From Thiogranum sp. (GTDB lineage Bacteria > Pseudomonadota > Gammaproteobacteria > DSM-19610), in assembly GCA_030148805.1 (NCBI GenBank), contig JASBSS010000001.1:310001-374000 (forward strand): DNA of 64,000 bases, written 5' to 3'. Each line of letters starts with the position of its first letter. Position 1 is the stretch's first letter. Of the stretch, positions 37,810-46,190 are shown piece after piece. The notes under the pieces are model-generated. The model saw only the letters and a program-made list of their open reading frames with translations. It was not told the origin of the DNA and searched no databases. A program made the translations under genes and the position numbers.

Positions 37810-38379
37810 CTAAGACCGAACCAGCGCTTTTAACGCGCGTCTTAGTGGTGGCAAGGCATCGCGCGGGTTCGCTTCGTACTGAGCGCGCACAATCGCGCCG
37901 TCGACAGCCAAGGCGATCGACTCGGCGAGCTGTTTGCGTCCTTTCCCCGGTTTCAGCAATCGCATGATGATAGTCAGCATGGCCTGCTTATGGCGGCGAG
38001 CGATGGCGACAATATCGGGAAGCTCAGCGCCCATCTCACCGACGCCATTGATAAACGCACAACCGCGAAAATCCGGCTGGCCGAACCATTCGCCCAGCGC
38101 GGCTATTAAAGCCTCGGGATCGTCGCCGTGACGCCTCAAGGCATCGCTGAACCAGGCAATCCAGCGCTCGTGACGACTCTCCAGGTAGGCGCTGATCAGA
38201 TCGCTCTTGCCGGGGAAATGACGGTAGAACGTCACTTTGGCAACCCCTGCCTCCGAGATAATTCGATCGATGCCCGTGGCGCGAATACCGTGGCGGTAAA
38301 AGAGACGATGCGCCGTCAGCAGTAAGCGCTCGCGCGCCGAGGCGACATCCGCTATGGCAGTGGCGTGCAAAATTTCCAT
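37810..38379 (-). CDS. TetR-family repressor
   Basis: 189 residues from the ATG at 38379. The N-terminal HTH ([56 protein letters not shown]) is typical of TetR proteins. The C-terminal ligand domain has [25 protein letters not shown], as in the TetR_C group often regulating small oxidoreductase or NTF2-like genes. It is divergent from the NTF2-like gene with 83 nt between them that hold two palindromes, so autoregulation and repression of the neighbour are very likely. Confidence 0.9.
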
Positions 38380-38387
38380 CCGTTGAG

Positions 38388-38407
38388 TGTAGACAACTTT
38401 GTCTACA
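38388..38407. promoter_or_regulatory. TetR operator 1
   Basis: TGTAGACAACTTTGTCTACA is a 20-bp palindrome with one mismatched pair, lying 9 nt upstream of the TetR start. It shares the GTAGACA half-site with operator 2. Confidence 0.75.
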
Positions 38408-38423
38408 TGCACTAGCCTTATCA

Positions 38424-38441
38424 GTAGACAGATCTGTCTAC
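38424..38441. promoter_or_regulatory. TetR operator 2
   Basis: GTAGACAGATCTGTCTAC is a perfect 18-bp palindrome, 21 nt upstream of the NTF2-like start and 35 nt centre-to-centre from operator 1. The same half-site occurs four times in 54 nt. Confidence 0.78.
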
Positions 38442-38462
38442 ACACAAACCTTGGAGTCACTA

Positions 38463-38930
38463 ATGGAAAGCAAACCCCCTCTGCCGCCGTTTACCGCCGA
38501 ATCCGCCGCCGAAAAAGTCCGTCTCGCGGAGGACGCCTGGAACACCCGCGACCCGGATCGCGTGGTGCTGGTGTATACGCATGCCACGCGCTGGCGTAAC
38601 CGCGCCGAGTTTCCGCAAGGCCGCGAGGAAGTTCGCCGTTTTCTTCAGCGCAAATGGGCGAAAGAACTGGATTACCGGCTGATTAAGGAACTGTGGAGTT
38701 TCACCGAGCAGCGCATCGCCGTGCGCTTCGCCTATGAATGGCACGACGACTCCAACCAGTGGTTCCGGTCCTACGGCAACGAAAACTGGGAATTCAACCC
38801 GCAGGGATTCATGACAAGACGCTTGGCCAGCATCAACGACCTGCCGATCGGAGAGTCCGAGCGTAAATATTTCTGGCCCTTGGGCCGTCGTCCGGATGAG
38901 CATCCGGGACTAAGTGAATTGGGGCTTTAG
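38463..38930 (+). CDS. DUF1348 / NTF2-like (SnoaL-fold) protein
   Basis: 155 residues from the ATG at 38463 (TTGGAG upstream). The sequence [44 protein letters not shown] and [27 protein letters not shown] is the DUF1348 signature, a cone-shaped NTF2-like fold about 150 residues long. Its function is not established; members are often under TetR control and may bind small hydrophobic or reactive compounds. Divergent from the TetR gene. Confidence 0.9.
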
Positions 38931-39177
38931 GGGCTAACGGCCGCACGAGTCGAGGATCGAGCCAGGAAAGGCTGTGTGGGGCACACCAACGTTGGGGATT
39001 TCGTAGCACTAGCACGTCATTTCCTAAACTATCCCCGAGAAGATGCCCCTCCAGTACAAGCACTCAGGTAGCTGGCTTTGCCTGATCGTATCTGCGCTAA
39101 CCTCGAGGATAAACTCGCAACTAAACAAGGTGATTTAGTGCTTGACAATCCAAAATTACTGGTTAGGATTCCTACCT

Positions 39178-39771
39178 ATGAAGTTCGACGCAATTACCGA
39201 GCCGTTGGATCTCCGTTTGGCCGAAGGACTGACCCGCCTGGCCGCTGTGGCGCGTCAACTGGATTGGGAATCGGCCGAATCCGCCGGATTGTCCCCAACC
39301 CAGGCCGACATCCTGCGCTTCGTCGCCAGCAGGCCAGTCGGCGTCCGGCTGACTGCGGCAGCGGACCACGCCGGCGTTCGCAAGGCCACGGCCAGTGACG
39401 CCGTCGCCGCGCTGGAACGAAAGGCTCTGGTGCGCAAACATGCCGATGCGCTGGATGCCCGGGCTGTCGCATTACGAACCACAACCAAAGGTCAGCGTTC
39501 CGCCGAAGCCTGGCCTATCAGTTTTCGATCGGTTATCGAAGGATTATCGGCTGCCGAACAGACGCTGCTTTTCGGTCTGGTCGTCAAGATGATCCGGCAG
39601 TTGCAGCACCGCGGACTCATCGCACCACAGCGAACCTGCGTGACGTGTCGGCATTTTCGTGAGAACCGCTCACCCGGCACAAATACGCCGCACTATTGTG
39701 CGCTGGTGGGTGCGCCGATGGCTGAACATCATTTGCGTCTCGATTGCCCGGAGCACGAATCCGCCGCCTGA
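39178..39771 (+). CDS. MarR-family regulator with C-terminal Cys/His metal-like tail
   Basis: 197 residues from the ATG at 39178; a TTG at 39142 is the alternative, but TTGACA there and TAGGAT at 39164-39169 could instead be a promoter. The winged helix is visible: SPTQADILRFVASRPVGVRLTAAADHAGVRKATASDAVAALERKALVRKHADALDARAVALRTTTKG. After about residue 155 there is an added module CVTCRHFRENR...HYCALVGAPMAEHHLRLDCPEHE with four cysteines and several His, a plausible Zn or Fe-S site for sensing redox. It heads a same-strand cluster of redox genes. Confidence 0.82.
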   Translation: MKFDAITEPLDLRLAEGLTRLAAVARQLDWESAESAGLSPTQADILRFVASRPVGVRLTAAADHAGVRKATASDAVAALERKALVRKHADALDARAVALRTTTKGQRSAEAWPISFRSVIEGLSAAEQTLLFGLVVKMIRQLQHRGLIAPQRTCVTCRHFRENRSPGTNTPHYCALVGAPMAEHHLRLDCPEHESAA

Positions 39772-39840
39772 CGGCGGCTATTAACCCCCCGTTGCCATTG
39801 AACGGGTTTTTTATTAAACCATATAGTTAGGAGTCCTTAC

Positions 39841-40077
39841 ATGAAAGAGCAAGCCATTTTCTACCACGCCGGCTGTCCCGTGTGCGTTGCCGCAGAGCAG
39901 CAGGTTGCCGAAGCCATCGATTCTGAGCGTTTCGAGGTCGAAATCGTGCACCTGGGCGAAAGTAAATCGCGTATCGGTGAAGCCGAATCCGTCGGGGTGA
40001 CGTCAGTGCCCGCACTGGTCATCGGCGGGCAGCCGTTTCACCTCAACTTCGGCGCAGCCATCGCCGATCTGAAATAG
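39841..40077 (+). CDS. Thioredoxin/glutaredoxin-like protein
   Basis: 78 residues with TTAGGAG before the ATG. The CPVC redox motif is at 12-15 (FYHAGCPVCVAAEQQV), and VTSVPALVIGG is the cis-Pro loop. It has no signal peptide, so it is cytoplasmic. It follows the MarR gene after 69 nt and precedes a cytochrome gene after 12 nt, suggesting an operon responding to thiol or oxidative stress. Confidence 0.85.
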   Translation: MKEQAIFYHAGCPVCVAAEQQVAEAIDSERFEVEIVHLGESKSRIGEAESVGVTSVPALVIGGQPFHLNFGAAIADLK

Positions 40078-40089
40078 AGAGGGAAACCA

Positions 40090-40566
40090 ATGAGACCACT
40101 TATCCTTGCCACACTTTGCGTGGCAATATCGACAGCAGCACTGGCCGCAGATCACGAGGTTCCGTACCCGGAGGGTTACCGCGACTGGCATCATGTGAAG
40201 AGCATGGTGATAGAGGAAGGTCACCCGTTGTACGCTTCCTTTGGCGGTATTCACCACCTGTATGCCAACGACAAGGCCATGAACGGTTACCAGAAAGGGG
40301 TATTTCCCGACGGATCCGTGATTGTCTTCGACCTGCTCGAGGCCATGCATGATGGTAATGCTGTCACTGAAGGCACCCGCAAAGTCGTCGGCGTCATGCA
40401 CAAGGATTCGAAGCAGTACAGGGACACCGGCGGCTGGGGCTTCGAAGGCTTCGGCGGGGGTGACCGGAGCAATCGGGTCGTGGGCGGGAATGCGGCCTCT
40501 GCCTGCTTCGCTTGTCATGCGCCGCGGAAGGCGCAGGACTACACCTTCAGCAAGCTAAGGGACTGA
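40090..40566 (+). CDS. Cytochrome P460-family periplasmic protein
   Basis: 158 residues with a signal peptide (LILATLCVAISTAALA). Family pattern: YPEGYRDWHHVKSMVI, then HHLYANDKAMNGYQKGVFPDGSVIVFDLLE, and GRKVVGVMHKDSKQYRDTGGWGFEGF-like core. The C-terminal haem site is CFACH. Cytochrome P460 and its relatives bind an unusual c-type haem; some oxidise hydroxylamine, others are cytochrome c'-beta that bind NO. A role in nitrogen-oxide detoxification is possible here; direct evidence is lacking. Confidence 0.88.
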   Translation: MRPLILATLCVAISTAALAADHEVPYPEGYRDWHHVKSMVIEEGHPLYASFGGIHHLYANDKAMNGYQKGVFPDGSVIVFDLLEAMHDGNAVTEGTRKVVGVMHKDSKQYRDTGGWGFEGFGGGDRSNRVVGGNAASACFACHAPRKAQDYTFSKLRD

Positions 40567-40573
40567 AGCAAGC

Positions 40574-40907
40574 ATGATTCAGCCAGATAAGACGCCAAAA
40601 TGGCGCATCTGCGAATGGCTGAAGACGCCAAAACCCATTGATCTGGAGGCGCAGCGCGGCCGTGTAGTGGTCGCCTGCGCCTTCCAGATGCTGTGTCCCG
40701 GGTGTGTCTCCCGCGCCATTCCCCAAATGGAGACCGACCTTTTTGTTGATCGATCGAAACGGACGACTGCGTCGTCAAGTATTCGGCCATATCCCGGATC
40801 TGCAACTTTGCGCTGAGATTTCTCAGCTGGTAATGGAATCCGTGAACAATGAGACAGGTTCGGCTGCCACGCCAGAAAAAGTTTTGTCACCAGGAGTACG
40901 AAAATGA
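40574..40907 (+). pseudogene. Broken redoxin (AhpC/TSA-like) gene
   Basis: The first frame reads WLKTPKPIDLEAQRGRVVVACAFQMLCPGCVSRAIPQ, the N-terminal half of a redoxin with the CPGC motif. Then a second frame gives FLLIDRNGRLRRQVFGHIPDLQLCAEISQLV, the C-terminal end. The middle of the domain (about 70-80 residues) is missing and the two parts are out of frame. It begins 7 nt after the P460 gene and overlaps the start of the amidotransferase gene. Confidence 0.75.
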
Positions 40908-41602
40908 ACGCGAGCGCCATTCGCCATGTTACCTTTGAAGATCTCGGTCTACTCGAACCACTGCTTAAAGACTTCGGCTTCGAGATCACCTACGTCAATG
41001 CCTGGGAGCTGGACAGGCAAGCCGCCGAGATGGCCGAACTGGTAGTGTTCCTGGGCGGGCCTATCAGCGTAAATGATGGGGCCGACTACCCCTTCCTGAC
41101 TGAGGAGGTCGAGCTTGCCAAGGCCAGACTCGCCGCCGCTAAGCCAACGCTCGGCATCTGCCTCGGCGCACAGATTCTGGCGCGCGCGATCGGTGGCAGC
41201 GTGCATCCCGGCTCGACGAAAGAGATCGGGTGGGAGCCGATCTCACTGACTGATGCCGGTCAGGCATCCGTGCTCGCCCCGCTGCGACACATTCCGGTGC
41301 TGCACTGGCACGGTGAAATGTGCAAGCTGCCGCAAGGCATAGACAGCCTGGCTCATACACCCGGCTGTGCCACCCAGGCTTTTATCCCCGGCTCCAATGC
41401 GCTGGCGCTGCAGTTCCATATCGAAGCCGGCGCAGACGGGATCGAGCCCTGGTTGGTAGGCCATACCGGCGAAATCGCACAAACACCCGGTGTTACCGTC
41501 GCCGATTTACGCGCCGATACACGTCGGCATGGAACTGAGTTGAGAACCGCCGCCGTTGAGGTCTTCCAACGCTGGTTTGCGGACATCGGGTTCCACCAAT
41601 GA
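40904..41602 (+). CDS. Class I glutamine amidotransferase-like protein
   Basis: 232 residues. The nucleophile elbow GICLGAQILARAIGG contains the catalytic Cys, and LQFHIEAGADGIEPWL carries the catalytic His/Glu. VVFLGGPISVND is the usual GATase oxyanion strand. This is the stand-alone GMP-synthase-like (YfeJ/GuaA-N) group, which probably hydrolyses glutamine or acts as a gamma-glutamyl peptidase. Overlaps the MOSC start by 4 nt. Confidence 0.87.
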   Translation: MNASAIRHVTFEDLGLLEPLLKDFGFEITYVNAWELDRQAAEMAELVVFLGGPISVNDGADYPFLTEEVELAKARLAAAKPTLGICLGAQILARAIGGSVHPGSTKEIGWEPISLTDAGQASVLAPLRHIPVLHWHGEMCKLPQGIDSLAHTPGCATQAFIPGSNALALQFHIEAGADGIEPWLVGHTGEIAQTPGVTVADLRADTRRHGTELRTAAVEVFQRWFADIGFHQ

Positions 41603-42321
41603 TCTCTTTTACCATCGTGGAACTGCGCGCCGGACGCACCAGGCCGCTTGGCGACAGAGGCCATGTATCCGCCATCGACAAGCAGCCGATCTCCGGATCG
41701 ATCCGTGTGGAAGCAGAGGGACTGGAAGGTGACGAGCAGGCCGATCGGCGACATCACGGCGGACGCGACAAGGCATTGCACGCCTACCCAGTGACCCACT
41801 ACGAAACATGGACGGCAGAGTTGCCGCAACTGGCGGACCGATTGGTAGCAGGCGGATTCGGAGAAAACCTCGTGGTCGAGGGTGTGACCGAGCAGGATCT
41901 GTGTCTTGGTGACCGTTTCCGCATCGGCCCGGTGCTCGTCGAGCTTACTCAGAGCCGCCAGCCTTGCTGGAAGCTGAACCTGCGATTCAACCAGTCGGAC
42001 ATGGCGCACCGAGTGCAGACGACAGGCCGTACGGGTTGGTATTTTCGTGTGCTTCGCTCGGGCGAAATCCAGGCAGGGTGCACGGCCGAACTCGTCAACC
42101 GACCTAACCCGGACTGGTCGCTAACGCGTGTCGCGAACCTGCTCTATCAATCCACCAATGATCCCGAGGCACTTGCTGAATTTGCGATGCTCCCGGAGCT
42201 GCCGGATAACTGGCGTCGCCTCGCTGAACGGCGAATCCGCTCAAAACGCACTGAAGATTGGCGTCCCCGGCTGATTGAATCGCCCCGGGTTTTGAGGAGG
42301 CTCCAACTTCTGAGAGAATGA
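41599..42321 (+). CDS. MOSC-domain protein (YiiM-like), C-terminus altered by IS
   Basis: 240 residues. The MOSC core has [52 protein letters not shown] and the Cys of [12 protein letters not shown], followed by a 3-alpha domain ([26 protein letters not shown]). MOSC proteins bind sulfur via the conserved Cys and work with molybdenum cofactor or N-hydroxylated compound reduction (YiiM). The last 15 codons (from about 42276) are encoded by the left end of the IS3 element, so the native terminus was replaced. The catalytic part is intact. Confidence 0.85.
42276..42303. repeat. IS3 left terminal inverted repeat
   Basis: Pairs with 43579-43606; about 22 of 28 positions match, including CGCCC, GGGTTT and GGAG. 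Confidence 0.8.
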
Positions 42322-42325
42322 AGCC

Positions 42326-42660
42326 ATGAAAAAGACCAACAAGACGAACAAGTTTTCCCCCGAGGTCCGGGAGCGCGCCGTGCGGCTGGTCCATGAGCAC
42401 CGATCCGAATACCCCTCGCTGTGGGCCGCCGTTGAATCCATCGCCCCGAAGATCGGCTGCGTGCCGCAGACGCTGCTGGAGTGGGTCAAGCGCGAGGAGG
42501 TCGACAGCGGCCAGCGCGACGGCCTGACCAGTTCCGAGCGTGAACGCCTCAAGCAGCTCTGGAACGCGAGAACAAGGAGCTGCGCCGGGCCAATGAGATC
42601 CTCAAGGCGGCCAGTGCGTTTTTCGCCCAGGCGGAGCTCGACCGCCGTTTGAAGAGCTGA
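42326..42660 (+). pseudogene. IS3 orfA (transposase helix-turn-helix protein), frameshifted
   Basis: The ATG-started frame has the OrfA HTH ([49 protein letters not shown]). At about 42558, CAGCTCTGGAACGC contains an extra CT. Removing it restores [32 protein letters not shown] and the normal stop at 42658-42660. As written, the frame runs to 42652 with unrelated residues. Confidence 0.85.
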
Positions 42661-42716
42661 AGCGGTTTACCGATCAGTACCGGCATACATACGGGGTCGA
42701 GCCGATCTGCGAGGTC

Positions 42717-43565
42717 TTGCAGATCGCCCCGTCGTGCTACCGACGCCATGCGGCACGGCTGCGTGATCCGGAATTGCGCAGTGCACGGGCCAAAGCTGAT
42801 GATGAACTGATTATCCCGATCCAGCGTGTCTGGCACGCCAACATGCAGGTCTACGGCGCTGACAAGGTCTGGCGGCAGATGAACCGCGAAGGTATCGCCG
42901 TGGCACGCTGCACGGTCGAGCGCTTGATGAGCCGCCTGGGCTTGCAGGGTGCGCGTCGCGGCAAATCGGTGCAAACCACGGTGCCGGACACTTCAGCGCC
43001 GTGCCCCCTGGACCGGATCAGCCGGGTGTTCAAGGCTGATCGCCCGAACCAGCTCTGGATGTCGGACTTCACCTATGTCTCGACCTGGCAGGGCTGGCTG
43101 TTCGTGGCGTTCATGATCGACGGGTTCGCCCGGCGCATTGTCGGCTGGCGCGTGAGCAGCACCATGCGCACAGACTTCGTGCTCGATGCATTGGAGCAAG
43201 CGCTCTATGACCGGCAGCCTGAGCGCACAGACGCCTTGGTGCATCACTCGGACAGAGGCTCGCAGTACGTCTCGATCCGTTATACCGAGCGGCTGGCTGA
43301 GGCTGGCATAGAGCCTTCGGTCGGCGGCCGCGGCGACAGCTACGACAACGCGTTGGCCGAGACGATCAACGGACTGTACAAGGCCGAGTTGGTCCCTCGC
43401 CGCGCGCCGTGGAAAACCAAGGAGTCCGTGGAGCTGGCCACGCTGCAATGGGTGCACTGGTTCAACCACCAGCGACTTCTGGAGCCGATCGGGTATATCC
43501 CATCGGCCGAAGCTGAGGCAAACTACTGGCGGCAGCTCGCTGAGAAGGACAAGCTTGCTGCCTGA
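42717..43565 (+). CDS. IS3 orfB transposase (DDE integrase core)
   Basis: 282 residues from a TTG at 42717; in the element the frame continues upstream to about 42651 ([23 protein letters not shown]) and is normally reached by a programmed -1 shift from orfA. The rve core has WMSDFTYV, HSDRGSQYVS and DNALAETINGLYKAELV, giving the D-D-E triad. The second domain closes with TLQWVHWFNHQRLLEPIGYIPSAEAEANY. Intact on its own, but unlikely to be made as OrfAB because orfA is disrupted. Confidence 0.9.
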   Translation: MQIAPSCYRRHAARLRDPELRSARAKADDELIIPIQRVWHANMQVYGADKVWRQMNREGIAVARCTVERLMSRLGLQGARRGKSVQTTVPDTSAPCPLDRISRVFKADRPNQLWMSDFTYVSTWQGWLFVAFMIDGFARRIVGWRVSSTMRTDFVLDALEQALYDRQPERTDALVHHSDRGSQYVSIRYTERLAEAGIEPSVGGRGDSYDNALAETINGLYKAELVPRRAPWKTKESVELATLQWVHWFNHQRLLEPIGYIPSAEAEANYWRQLAEKDKLAA

Positions 43566-43806: not shown

Positions 43807-44490
43807 CTACGACCGGCTAAACCAATTCAACCCCTCCCTGGACACCAGATGTATTTCCCCGCGCGACAACTGAATACACTCCTGATACTCAAATTCTTTC
43901 AGTATGCGACTGATCATTTCCCGCGTCGTGCCCAGCTCACGAGCGAGTTGCGCGTGAGTTTTCAACAGCGGTTCCCCGCCTGAACGTTCGAACAGTTGAC
44001 CGAGAAGGCAAGCCAGGCGCAAATCCAGTCGCTGGAAGGTGACTTCCGATATCAGCTGCACGACATCGCCAAGACGGCGCGACAACACTTTAAGGAGGTA
44101 ACGGCGAAATTCTTTTGAATCGTCGATCGCGCGGTCAAAATCGCGCTGATCGAGCGTTAACCCGTAAAGCTCGGTCTCCGCGACAGCCTCAGCGGGAAAA
44201 CCTTCGTCATCCAGCAGGCATTGTAGGCTAAGAACGCAGAGTTCCCCTGGCTTTACGCGGTACAAGGTTATTTCCCGCCCGCCGGGTGAATGTTTAAAGA
44301 CGCGGACGGTGCCTTCCAGCAACCACATGAAGTGCCGGCAACGCTCAGACTCCCGGAACAAATGTGCACCTGCTGGAATGCGTGACAGGTTCGCAGACGC
44401 CCGTATAGTCTGCGATACGGACTCCAGCAGGTTCTCCACTTCTGGATACTGGCACTGCAGTAATTCCTGAATTTCGGTTATTCCGCTCAC
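43807..44490 (-). CDS. Crp/Fnr-family transcriptional regulator
   Basis: 227 residues if started at the GTG at 44490; the frame extends to 44613, but that would be longer than the family. The cyclic-nucleotide-like sensor domain (IPAGAHLFRESERCRHFMWLLEGTVRVFKHSPGGREITLYRVKPGELCVLSLQCLLDD) precedes a C-terminal HTH (THAQLARELGTTREMISRILKEFEYQECIQLSRGEIHLV). Cys residues occur near 53 and in LCVLSLQCLL; the spacing is not that of FNR, so an Fe-S cluster is unlikely and the effector is unknown. It is divergent from the multicopper oxidase gene and probably controls it. Confidence 0.87.
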   Translation of the reverse strand: MSGITEIQELLQCQYPEVENLLESVSQTIRASANLSRIPAGAHLFRESERCRHFMWLLEGTVRVFKHSPGGREITLYRVKPGELCVLSLQCLLDDEGFPAEAVAETELYGLTLDQRDFDRAIDDSKEFRRYLLKVLSRRLGDVVQLISEVTFQRLDLRLACLLGQLFERSGGEPLLKTHAQLARELGTTREMISRILKEFEYQECIQLSRGEIHLVSREGLNWFSRS

Positions 44491-44572
44491 TTTATATTTA
44501 TATTCGCCTGTCAGTTCCCTATTGCGACAGCTCCTCCAACCGCGGCCCCCTATTTTGAGCGAGCATACCACG

Positions 44573-44615
44573 CAATGTGTGTACTGAAAGATACATACAT
44601 TGAATACATACATTG
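44573..44615. promoter_or_regulatory. Repeat cluster upstream of the Crp/Fnr gene
   Basis: CAATGTGTGTA (44573-44583) is inverted relative to two direct copies of ATACATACATTG (44591-44602 and 44604-44615). It lies between the Crp/Fnr start and the multicopper oxidase start, and could be a binding site for the regulator. Confidence 0.45.
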
Positions 44616-44720
44616 CGCTCAGAATTCATTACCTTATTTGCGCTTTTTATAAAATTGTAACAAAGACAACTCCCATAAATATTTTATTGAAATAGAATTT
44701 TTTCACCGGAGGAGAGAGCG

Positions 44721-46190
44721 ATGACTGCCACAAGAAGACAGTTTCTTAAAACAGTTAGCGTAGCTGCACCCGCGCTGCTATTACCGAAAGTCGCGTTGAG
44801 TCGCATGGGAGGTGGCAGCGGAATGGGCGGCGGAGGCGGCGGCAGCGCCATTTCTGCACCTGTATTTGAGCTCCCGCTAAACATCCCGCCGGTGCTGCAG
44901 CCGATCAGTTCAACGGCTACCCAGGACATTTTTGAATTGACCCAGAGAAATGCAACGGTGGGAATCATTCCCGGCACCCAGACAGCCATCCTGGGCTACA
45001 ACGGGATGACACCGGGACCCACGATTCGTGTCGATAGTGACCGCGAGACGGTCGTCCGGCACATCAACAACAGTAACGTGCGGACCACGACGCATTTGCA
45101 CGGCGGACACATGCGCGCCGGGGACGACGGACATCCTGTCGACTATGTAAACCCGGGTGCCACACGAGCGTATACCTATTCGAACAAGCAACTGCCCGCA
45201 ACGCTCTGGTACCACGATCACACCATGGATCTGACCGGTGACCAGGTCTATGCCGGTCTGGCCGGATTCTACCTGATGTCCGATGACTATGAACGTGCCC
45301 TGGGCCTGCCCAGCGGCGACCAGGAGGTCGCAATCGTAATCCAGGATCGTACCTTTGCAGCGGATGGGTCACTGATCTACAACGACAACATCATGGGTGA
45401 GCTGGGCGACACGATTCTTGTCAATGGTGCACCGTACCCCTACTTCGAAGTATCAACACGGAAATACCGTGTGCGCATATTGAATGGCTCGAACGCACGA
45501 ACCTACAACCTGGCTTTAAGCAACGGCACGACCTTCACCCAGATCGGTTCCGACGGCGGTCTGTTACCGGCGCCGGTATCACGCACCACTATGAGCATCG
45601 CACCGGCTGAACGTCTGGATGTCATCATCGATTTCTCCAATGCCTCAGTTGGTGACCAGATTGTTTTTCTAAATACGGCCGGCAGCGGAAGCACGACACA
45701 GATCATGCGGTTCGATGTCACCCGTGTGGAAGACGATGGCAGTGTGGTGCCGCAGGTACTGCGGCCGGTCGAGCGACTGGATCCCGCCGCGGCCGTGCAA
45801 ACACGGCGCTGGGTGTTCGGCATGTCCGGTGGAAGCTATCCCTGGGTGATCAACGGCCGACCCTATGATCCAGAGCGTATCGACGCCATGCCCCGCCTGG
45901 GCACCACCGAGATCTGGGAACTGACCAACCGGACCGGCATGATGCACCCGGTACACATCCACGACATCATGTGGCAGATCCTCGATATCAACGGCCGGCC
46001 ACCGGCGCCGCAGGATGCCGGCTGGAAAGACACCTTCCAGGTACCGCCCATGGGCACGGTGCGCGTCATCGGTCGGTTTGACGACTATGTTGGCGATCCC
46101 AACGATGTCACCACGGCCTATATGATGCACTGCCATATTCTGGAACACGAAGACCACGCCATGATGAGCCAGTTCGTGGTGGTCGAGTAG
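44721..46190 (+). CDS. Tat-exported multicopper oxidase
   Basis: 489 residues with GGAGGAGAGAG before the ATG. Tat signal TRRQFLKTVSVAAPALLL, then a Gly/Met-rich linker (RMGGGSGMGGGGGGS). The copper motifs are all present: THLHGGH, WYHDH, HPVHIHD and HCHILEHEDHAMM. Three cupredoxin domains give the CueO/SpoIII-type layout. It oxidises a metal or phenol in the periplasm and reduces oxygen to water; Cu(I) or Mn(II) would be typical. A terminator follows after 17 nt. Confidence 0.93.
   Translation: MTATRRQFLKTVSVAAPALLLPKVALSRMGGGSGMGGGGGGSAISAPVFELPLNIPPVLQPISSTATQDIFELTQRNATVGIIPGTQTAILGYNGMTPGPTIRVDSDRETVVRHINNSNVRTTTHLHGGHMRAGDDGHPVDYVNPGATRAYTYSNKQLPATLWYHDHTMDLTGDQVYAGLAGFYLMSDDYERALGLPSGDQEVAIVIQDRTFAADGSLIYNDNIMGELGDTILVNGAPYPYFEVSTRKYRVRILNGSNARTYNLALSNGTTFTQIGSDGGLLPAPVSRTTMSIAPAERLDVIIDFSNASVGDQIVFLNTAGSGSTTQIMRFDVTRVEDDGSVVPQVLRPVERLDPAAAVQTRRWVFGMSGGSYPWVINGRPYDPERIDAMPRLGTTEIWELTNRTGMMHPVHIHDIMWQILDINGRPPAPQDAGWKDTFQVPPMGTVRVIGRFDDYVGDPNDVTTAYMMHCHILEHEDHAMMSQFVVVE

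Follow-up and report, generated by a model that had tools for sequence, protein, structure and literature searches.

We analysed a 64,000-nucleotide (nt) stretch of the genome of Thiogranum sp. (GCA_030148805.1, contig JASBSS010000001.1, positions 310,001 to 374,000; hereafter "the window"), and focused on a gene cluster headed by a MarR-family regulator with a cysteine-rich tail. The genome containing the window comprises 3.78 Mb in 38 contigs. Open reading frames and domain scans place genes for MarR, a thioredoxin, a cytochrome, a broken redoxin, a glutamine amidotransferase (GATase) and a MOSC protein on the forward strand (Table 1). These gene calls agree, in position and content, with a first-pass annotation of this DNA, which had listed a MarR protein with a Cys/His tail, a CPVC thioredoxin-like protein, a P460-family protein, GATase and MOSC. 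That annotation also described a one-strand cluster with short gaps. The shared strand is confirmed, but a single unit is not: a terminator-like hairpin separates MarR from thioredoxin, so the locus is better described as MarR plus a second unit. The palindromic operator described below was absent from the earlier account.

Table 1. Features of the MarR locus, in window coordinates
Feature	Position	Strand	Basis
Sigma-70-like marR promoter, TTGACA-16-TAGGAT	39142..39169	+	10/12 consensus matches; predicted function
Putative operator 1, GTTAGGATTCCTACC	39162..39176	.	In 20/20 close loci and upstream of distant tail-MarR genes
MarR-family regulator, 197 aa, C-terminal Cys4 tail (C154, C157, C174, C190; H172, H193)	39178..39771	+	Pfam, alignment
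Terminator-like hairpin, then T run, between marR and thioredoxin gene	39788..39806	+	Similar stretch seen in many close loci
Putative operator 2, GTTAGGAGTCCTTAC, overlapping the thioredoxin-gene ribosome-binding site	39826..39840	.	Co-varies with operator 1 in L034, L035
Small thioredoxin-like protein, 78 aa, CPVC	39841..40077	+	Thioredoxin_3
Secreted cytochrome c'-beta type protein (PF16694), haem motif CFACH, signal-peptide-like hydrophobic N-terminus	40090..40566	+	Cytochrome_P460, 113.6 bits; pocket residues
Redoxin/TlpA-like gene, broken by a 203-nt out-of-frame deletion	40574..40904	+	Intact 178-aa copies in L019, L023
Class-I glutamine amidotransferase (GATase), PRK07053 type	40904..41602	+	NF005458, 277.7 bits (cut-off 250)
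MOSC domain protein with YiiM 3-alpha domain (YiiM_3-alpha)	41599..42321	+	Domain scans

The regulator exceeds the curated cut-offs of two MarR families (PF12802, MarR_2, 40.4 bits against 27; PF01047, 27.0 against 24.6) and reaches no named MarR equivalog, its sole NCBIfam match being HpaR at 19 bits against a cut-off of 121.2. The tail reads CVTC..HYC..DCPEH, with the spacing CxxC-x16-C-x15-C and two histidines. A scan of 84,980 species returned 19 close relatives with 60-78% identity, and a profile made from the alignment of MarR proteins with this tail (tail-MarRs) matched in 22 of 397 Pseudomonadota genomes. In 51 of 51 homologues from close, plasmid and distant loci, C154, C157, C174 and C190 are invariant; their spacing varies within the pattern CxxC-x(8-30)-C-x(11-20)-C, which all 51 share. 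The tail histidines are less constant (H172 in 41, H193 in 43). By alignment, the regulator belongs to an unnamed MarR subfamily with an invariant Cys4 tail. Because the four cysteines are invariant in this set, sensing through the tail, as the first-pass annotation suggested, is a reasonable prediction. We also searched 56 relatives; those belonging to the genus of the window yielded a single weak, partial match (G002, E 3.9e-4) and no other. Either acquisition by transfer or loss from the other genomes of the genus is therefore the probable explanation.

The palindrome TTAGGA-N-TCCTAA lies on the marR promoter and again ahead of the next gene. Throughout the close set, GTTAGGA-N-TCCTAAC or a near copy precedes nearly every MarR gene, usually 3 nt before the ATG, and TTGAC(A) is seen by eye at an equal distance in nearly all of these loci. 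In the window, the -10 box TAGGAT of marR's TTGACA promoter sits within operator 1 and the ATG follows 8 nt further; the marR mRNA is expected to be leaderless. The second palindrome is found 3' of the MarR gene, in most close loci over the ribosome-binding site of the next gene, whatever that gene is. Both copies, with at most one mismatch to TAGGANTCCTA, are present in 20 of 20 close loci (the window and L017-L035), compared to 0 of 4000 random 170-bp windows from control loci. In L034 both copies have changed alike, each reading TAGGACTCCT, and in L035 they have changed together, to TAGTACTCCTA and TAGGAGTACTA. The occurrence of unusual centres or arms in both copies of these two loci suggests that one protein reads both sites.

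The motif extends beyond the close relatives. On plasmids it lies ahead of 7 of 11 tail-MarR genes, those of a cyanobacterium and a Deinococcus among them. It is upstream of 3 of 20 distant tail-MarR genes; L109 has a further copy behind MarR, and L111 has two where its operon begins. A 14-letter pattern gave 14 strand hits in the genomes of 18 relatives (71.9 Mb), distributed over 8 genomes and all at the MarR locus. Since about 9 hits anywhere are expected by chance (at even base composition; a reversed control pattern gave 3), the weight rests on the position of the hits, not on their number. Twelve of 13 TAGGANTCCTA sites in 12 further genomes or records were at tail-MarR loci, and the sole site elsewhere (L103) is inside a long reading frame that by eye resembles a DNA methyltransferase. 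A second target in the window's own genome was considered and rejected, as no other site lies within one mismatch. Because the copies co-vary in two genomes and the motif recurs ahead of tail-MarR genes in other phyla, the palindrome is, on sequence grounds, a DNA operator. Autoregulation and control of the operon by this MarR are predicted with high confidence.

An alternative is that the second palindrome acts in the mRNA, as a short hairpin that hides the ribosome-binding site of the thioredoxin gene, and is no MarR site. Judged by eye, almost all close loci have the AGGAG or AGGA of the next gene inside operator 2, whose arms would be able to pair with a loop of 3 nt between them. However, positions 39766-39860 fold no better than shuffled sequences (z -0.60), the marR promoter, from which no 5' leader is expected, carries this motif too, and the two operators change together in L034 and L035. 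In the plasmid records L045, L050, L052 and L053, moreover, the motif is 23-41 nt from the start codon. We consider an RNA hairpin very unlikely and rejected it for want of folding support.

A sister branch of Cys4-tail MarRs (L112-L121, L181, L180), present as such in the tree, has its own operator, GTATCGA-N-TCGATAC; the core TATCGA-N-TCGATA was found at 9 of 20 distant loci with at most one mismatch. This branch occurs in Pseudomonas aeruginosa and on Enterobacter/Citrobacter plasmids, adjoining the same thioredoxin. The P. aeruginosa genes are presumably PA0939-PA0942, and the papers that contain one of these tags mention it, in the text at hand, in lists only. A gene for a Rho-binding antiterminator (ROF-like) was observed near sister-branch regulators (L112-L117, L180, L181), in 6 of 20 distant loci compared to 0 of 20 controls.

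The genes accompanying the regulator recur with it. The cytochrome is present at 15 of the 19 close loci, a redoxin or part of one at 14, an intact thioredoxin at 8 and a DUF2024 gene at 2; in 3 a secreted protein of unknown family stands in the cytochrome's stead, and every close locus has some partner. Using partner queries drawn from the window, L019 and the plasmid loci, we found at least one partner family within approximately 8.5 kb at 18 of 20 distant tail-MarR loci, compared to 0 of 20 ordinary MarR loci. The distant set consisted of 20 of the 22 profile matches other than our own, leaving out G330 and G166 (match ended before the tail); G330 was later seen to have MarR, thioredoxin, the secreted protein and TlpA. 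The controls were 20 PF12802 places, one per genome, chosen by hand from high in the list. Both GATase and MOSC genes come after the regulator in L105 and L107; L104, L106 and L110 have GATase there, and L118 has MOSC. Plasmids of Novosphingobium, Nostoc, Hymenobacter and Phaeobacter likewise carry a MOSC gene near the tail-MarR. In Cyanobacteriota, Deinococcota and Bacteroidota, plasmid-borne tail-MarRs again have members of the set as neighbours. Conversely, 12 of 397 genomes contain the thioredoxin, and every one of the 12 has it next to a tail-MarR. Plasmid thioredoxins with no annotated MarR neighbour exist in Thiothrix, Cytobacillus and Agrobacterium, so this link is not absolute. Other tail-MarR loci contain unrelated gas-binding haem proteins, namely a globin, a protoglobin and a hexameric Tyr-haem protein (HTHP).

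The partner counts and the thioredoxin linkage exclude a chance grouping, and co-regulation of the cluster is a well supported prediction. The first-pass annotation had made its proposal depend on co-occurrence elsewhere, and the regulator, thioredoxin, redoxin, GATase, MOSC and cytochrome do occur together across Pseudomonadota.

Two observations concern individual neighbours. The secreted protein that takes the cytochrome's place in L033-L035 has about 240 residues and no Pfam family, and recurs by tail-MarR genes (L033:5663-6412, L034:4702-5454, L035:5661-6485, L187:7010-7759); its AlphaFold model has a mean predicted confidence (pLDDT) of 33.6. On a Nostoc plasmid (L045:5346-7793), an AurF-type diiron oxygenase gene, then GATase and globin genes, lie behind the tail-MarR.

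The first-pass annotation named the cytochrome P460. Its family domain is as described, but it is not a P460 proper. The protein scores 176 bits against cytochrome c'-beta of Methylococcus capsulatus (6hih), compared to approximately 50 against cytochromes P460. Pocket residues were located in an alignment through 7zs4 (Phe32Val) and 7zqz (Phe61Val), with the Gly82 position counted from Phe61; the equivalents of Phe32, Phe61 and Gly82 are Phe, Phe and Gly. Thus Phe occupies the position of the haem-Lys cross-link of cytochrome P460 sensu stricto and Gly that of its distal carboxylate, and the protein has the features of a cytochrome c'-beta: a Phe or Arg cap, no Lys, no carboxylate, and CXXCH, here CFACH. 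By its pocket residues, the protein is a cytochrome c'-beta. It shares the Phe cap, Phe for Lys and Gly for carboxylate with the proteins of M. capsulatus (6hih) and Thermus (7ead); unlike them, it lies within a predicted regulated operon. According to a table in a 2025 review (PMC11928373), the c'-beta pocket is without Lys cross-link, carboxylate or hydroxylamine oxidation, and the same source gives a nitric oxide (NO) dissociation constant of at most 1e-10 M for McCP-beta. The c'-beta pocket therefore makes the argument for NO binding stronger and that for hydroxylamine oxidation weaker, and we rejected a hydroxylamine-oxidising P460.

This bears on whether the locus is a hydroxylamine or N-hydroxyl stress system, in which the cytochrome would oxidise NH2OH and MOSC would reduce N-hydroxylated bases. 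The Nostoc plasmid offers a parallel in its favour: there an AurF-family diiron oxygenase and GATase follow the tail-MarR, like the pairing of dnfA and dnfC, which according to PMC9478400 occur together in the hydroxylamine-forming dnf (Dirammox) cluster. However, an AurF-type gene was found at one locus only, and at none of the close loci nor in a 17-kb stretch of the window. The Nostoc relative shares GATase and the oxygenase with the dnf cluster of Alcaligenes but has a MarR, whereas DnfR is a MocR protein and was rejected as a related regulator. The cytochrome is of the type without cross-linking Lys and distal carboxylate, reported not to oxidise NH2OH, and MOSC scores 174.5 bits against the NF008577 cut-off of 294 for 6-hydroxyaminopurine reductase (YiiM). 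We regard the N-hydroxyl part of the earlier proposal as weakened and improbable; its nitrosative part is possible, given the gas-binding haem proteins and a few loci near nitrite reductase or NnrS genes.

For the remaining members, the thioredoxin matches a small thioredoxin structure, 2k8s, over its full length (E 8e-31); we take 2k8s to come from Nitrosomonas. The earlier label "redoxin remnant" was right: compared with the intact copies in L019 and L023, the gene has a single internal deletion that shifts the frame. L019 and L023 retain remnants of the GATase N-terminus at the equivalent junction behind redoxin (read by eye; for L023, tblastn gives E 4e-4), from which we judge that GATase has long been part of the unit.

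Gene order, tail conservation, the two operators with their co-variation, and the linkage across genomes can be read from the sequences; repression, a metal in the tail, and release on oxidation or nitrosation would be parts of the following model. MarR would bind TTAGGA-N-TCCTAA twice. One site would be its own -10 element; at the other, heading the thioredoxin-cytochrome c'-beta-redoxin-GATase-MOSC unit, it may block a weak promoter, read-through, or both. The four-cysteine tail, probably a Zn or Fe-S site, would be attacked by thiol-reactive species, whereupon the repressor would release DNA and the unit would be expressed. Thioredoxin and redoxin could then restore thiols, the periplasmic cytochrome could bind NO, and GATase and MOSC might act on a small molecule that contains nitrogen, or on the damage from it. 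A one-component thiol or metal-thiolate switch running this unit is moderately probable.

The signal is less certain, NO/nitrosative and thiol-electrophile stress being the leading candidates. NO or nitrosative stress is a plausible candidate that falls somewhat short of probable; a nitrite reductase is near the Thermus and Phaeobacter copies and NnrS near the Defluviimonas copy. Alternatively, the tail may sense thiol-specific oxidants or electrophiles such as hypochlorite, quinones, aldehydes and hypothiocyanite, and the operon may repair thiols, with NO playing no part. Thioredoxin and redoxin/TlpA are among the commonest partners, a thiol peroxidase adjoins the Nostoc MarR, and Old-Yellow-Enzyme-like flavoprotein genes were found at 5 of 20 tail loci compared to 1 of 20 controls, but most of these matches are remote (28-46% identity), and related genomes account for several of them. 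A regulon of this kind would not be expected to include gas-binding haem proteins, GATase and MOSC, and we consider it possible but doubtful. A signal of sulfane sulfur or of sulfite/sulfide, with thioredoxin and redoxin disposing of persulfides, is unlikely: sulfite reductase and cystathionine synthase adjoin the Novosphingobium copy and the names of several close relatives point to sulfur-oxidiser or symbiont lineages, yet sulfur genes are missing from the recurrent neighbour families.

We speculate, tentatively, that Cys4-tail MarRs are a new class of sensors for NO or reactive nitrogen, acting via a Zn- or Fe-S-thiolate tail and running a shared detoxification guild across several phyla. 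In this guild, c'-beta cytochromes, globins, protoglobins and hexameric Tyr-haem proteins would be interchangeable, alongside a dedicated thioredoxin, redoxin, GATase, MOSC, DUF2024 and the undescribed secreted protein.

Several points weigh against the thiol or metal-thiolate switch and its proposed nitrosative signal. The Cys4 tail had no convincing match among Pfam families and PDB chains, and in the AlphaFold model, where the winged helix is clear, the tail has a pLDDT below 50. No conserved strong promoter accompanies operator 2, which also lies over a ribosome-binding site. The 20 distant loci include close relatives (L104-L106, L112-L114, L115-L117, L119 with L121) and by eye represent approximately 11 lineages. 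None of the 20 distant and none of the 20 close loci had NirK, NirS, NorB or NnrS nearby; such genes were found in some plasmid records only. The cytochrome is linked to a tail-MarR in its two closest forms only (2 of 23 places); related cytochromes of at most 43% identity are unlinked (21 of 23 places). It is also missing from many loci, so NO is no constant theme. Finally, because redoxin is broken in this copy, the cluster may be decaying.

Cysteine-based MarR redox repressors include those of the OhrR, SarZ/MgrA and HypR type, and AdcR/ZitR are zinc-sensing MarR proteins. The regulator resembles the former in its MarR fold, the palindromic operator on its own promoter and likely thiol switching; here, in contrast, the four cysteines follow the dimerisation helix, in a C-terminal tail, and are spaced like those of a metal site. 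It is comparable to AdcR/ZitR in its possible metal site, but with redox targets instead of zinc uptake, and the ligands would be the Cys4 tail. No description of the regulator, its operators or the gene set was found in open PMC papers (subscription papers were outside the scope). For an unstudied regulator subfamily, an operator and a regulon can thus be predicted and a sensor site proposed for testing. In addition, a cytochrome c'-beta is tied to a regulator and a thioredoxin. The review PMC11928373 calls the physiological roles of these cytochromes undetermined, and in its text as available "operon", "gene cluster" and "thioredoxin" are absent. The sister branch in P. aeruginosa and on Enterobacter/Citrobacter plasmids makes the question testable in laboratory strains.

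Just upstream of the cluster (37810-38930), a TetR gene is divergent from a DUF1348 (SnoaL-like) gene; both were rejected as cluster members, having no relative in close loci. At 43807-46190, a Crp/Fnr-type regulator gene is divergent from one that by eye looks like a multicopper oxidase and has a Gly/Met-rich stretch, and neither has a relative at other tail-MarR loci. A PADLOC scan gave a weak winged-helix match only. Directly after MOSC, two reading frames of IS3-like transposase genes (42326-43565), for which a repeat search gave no pair of terminal inverted repeats of at least 14 nt, start 5 nt past the MOSC stop codon.

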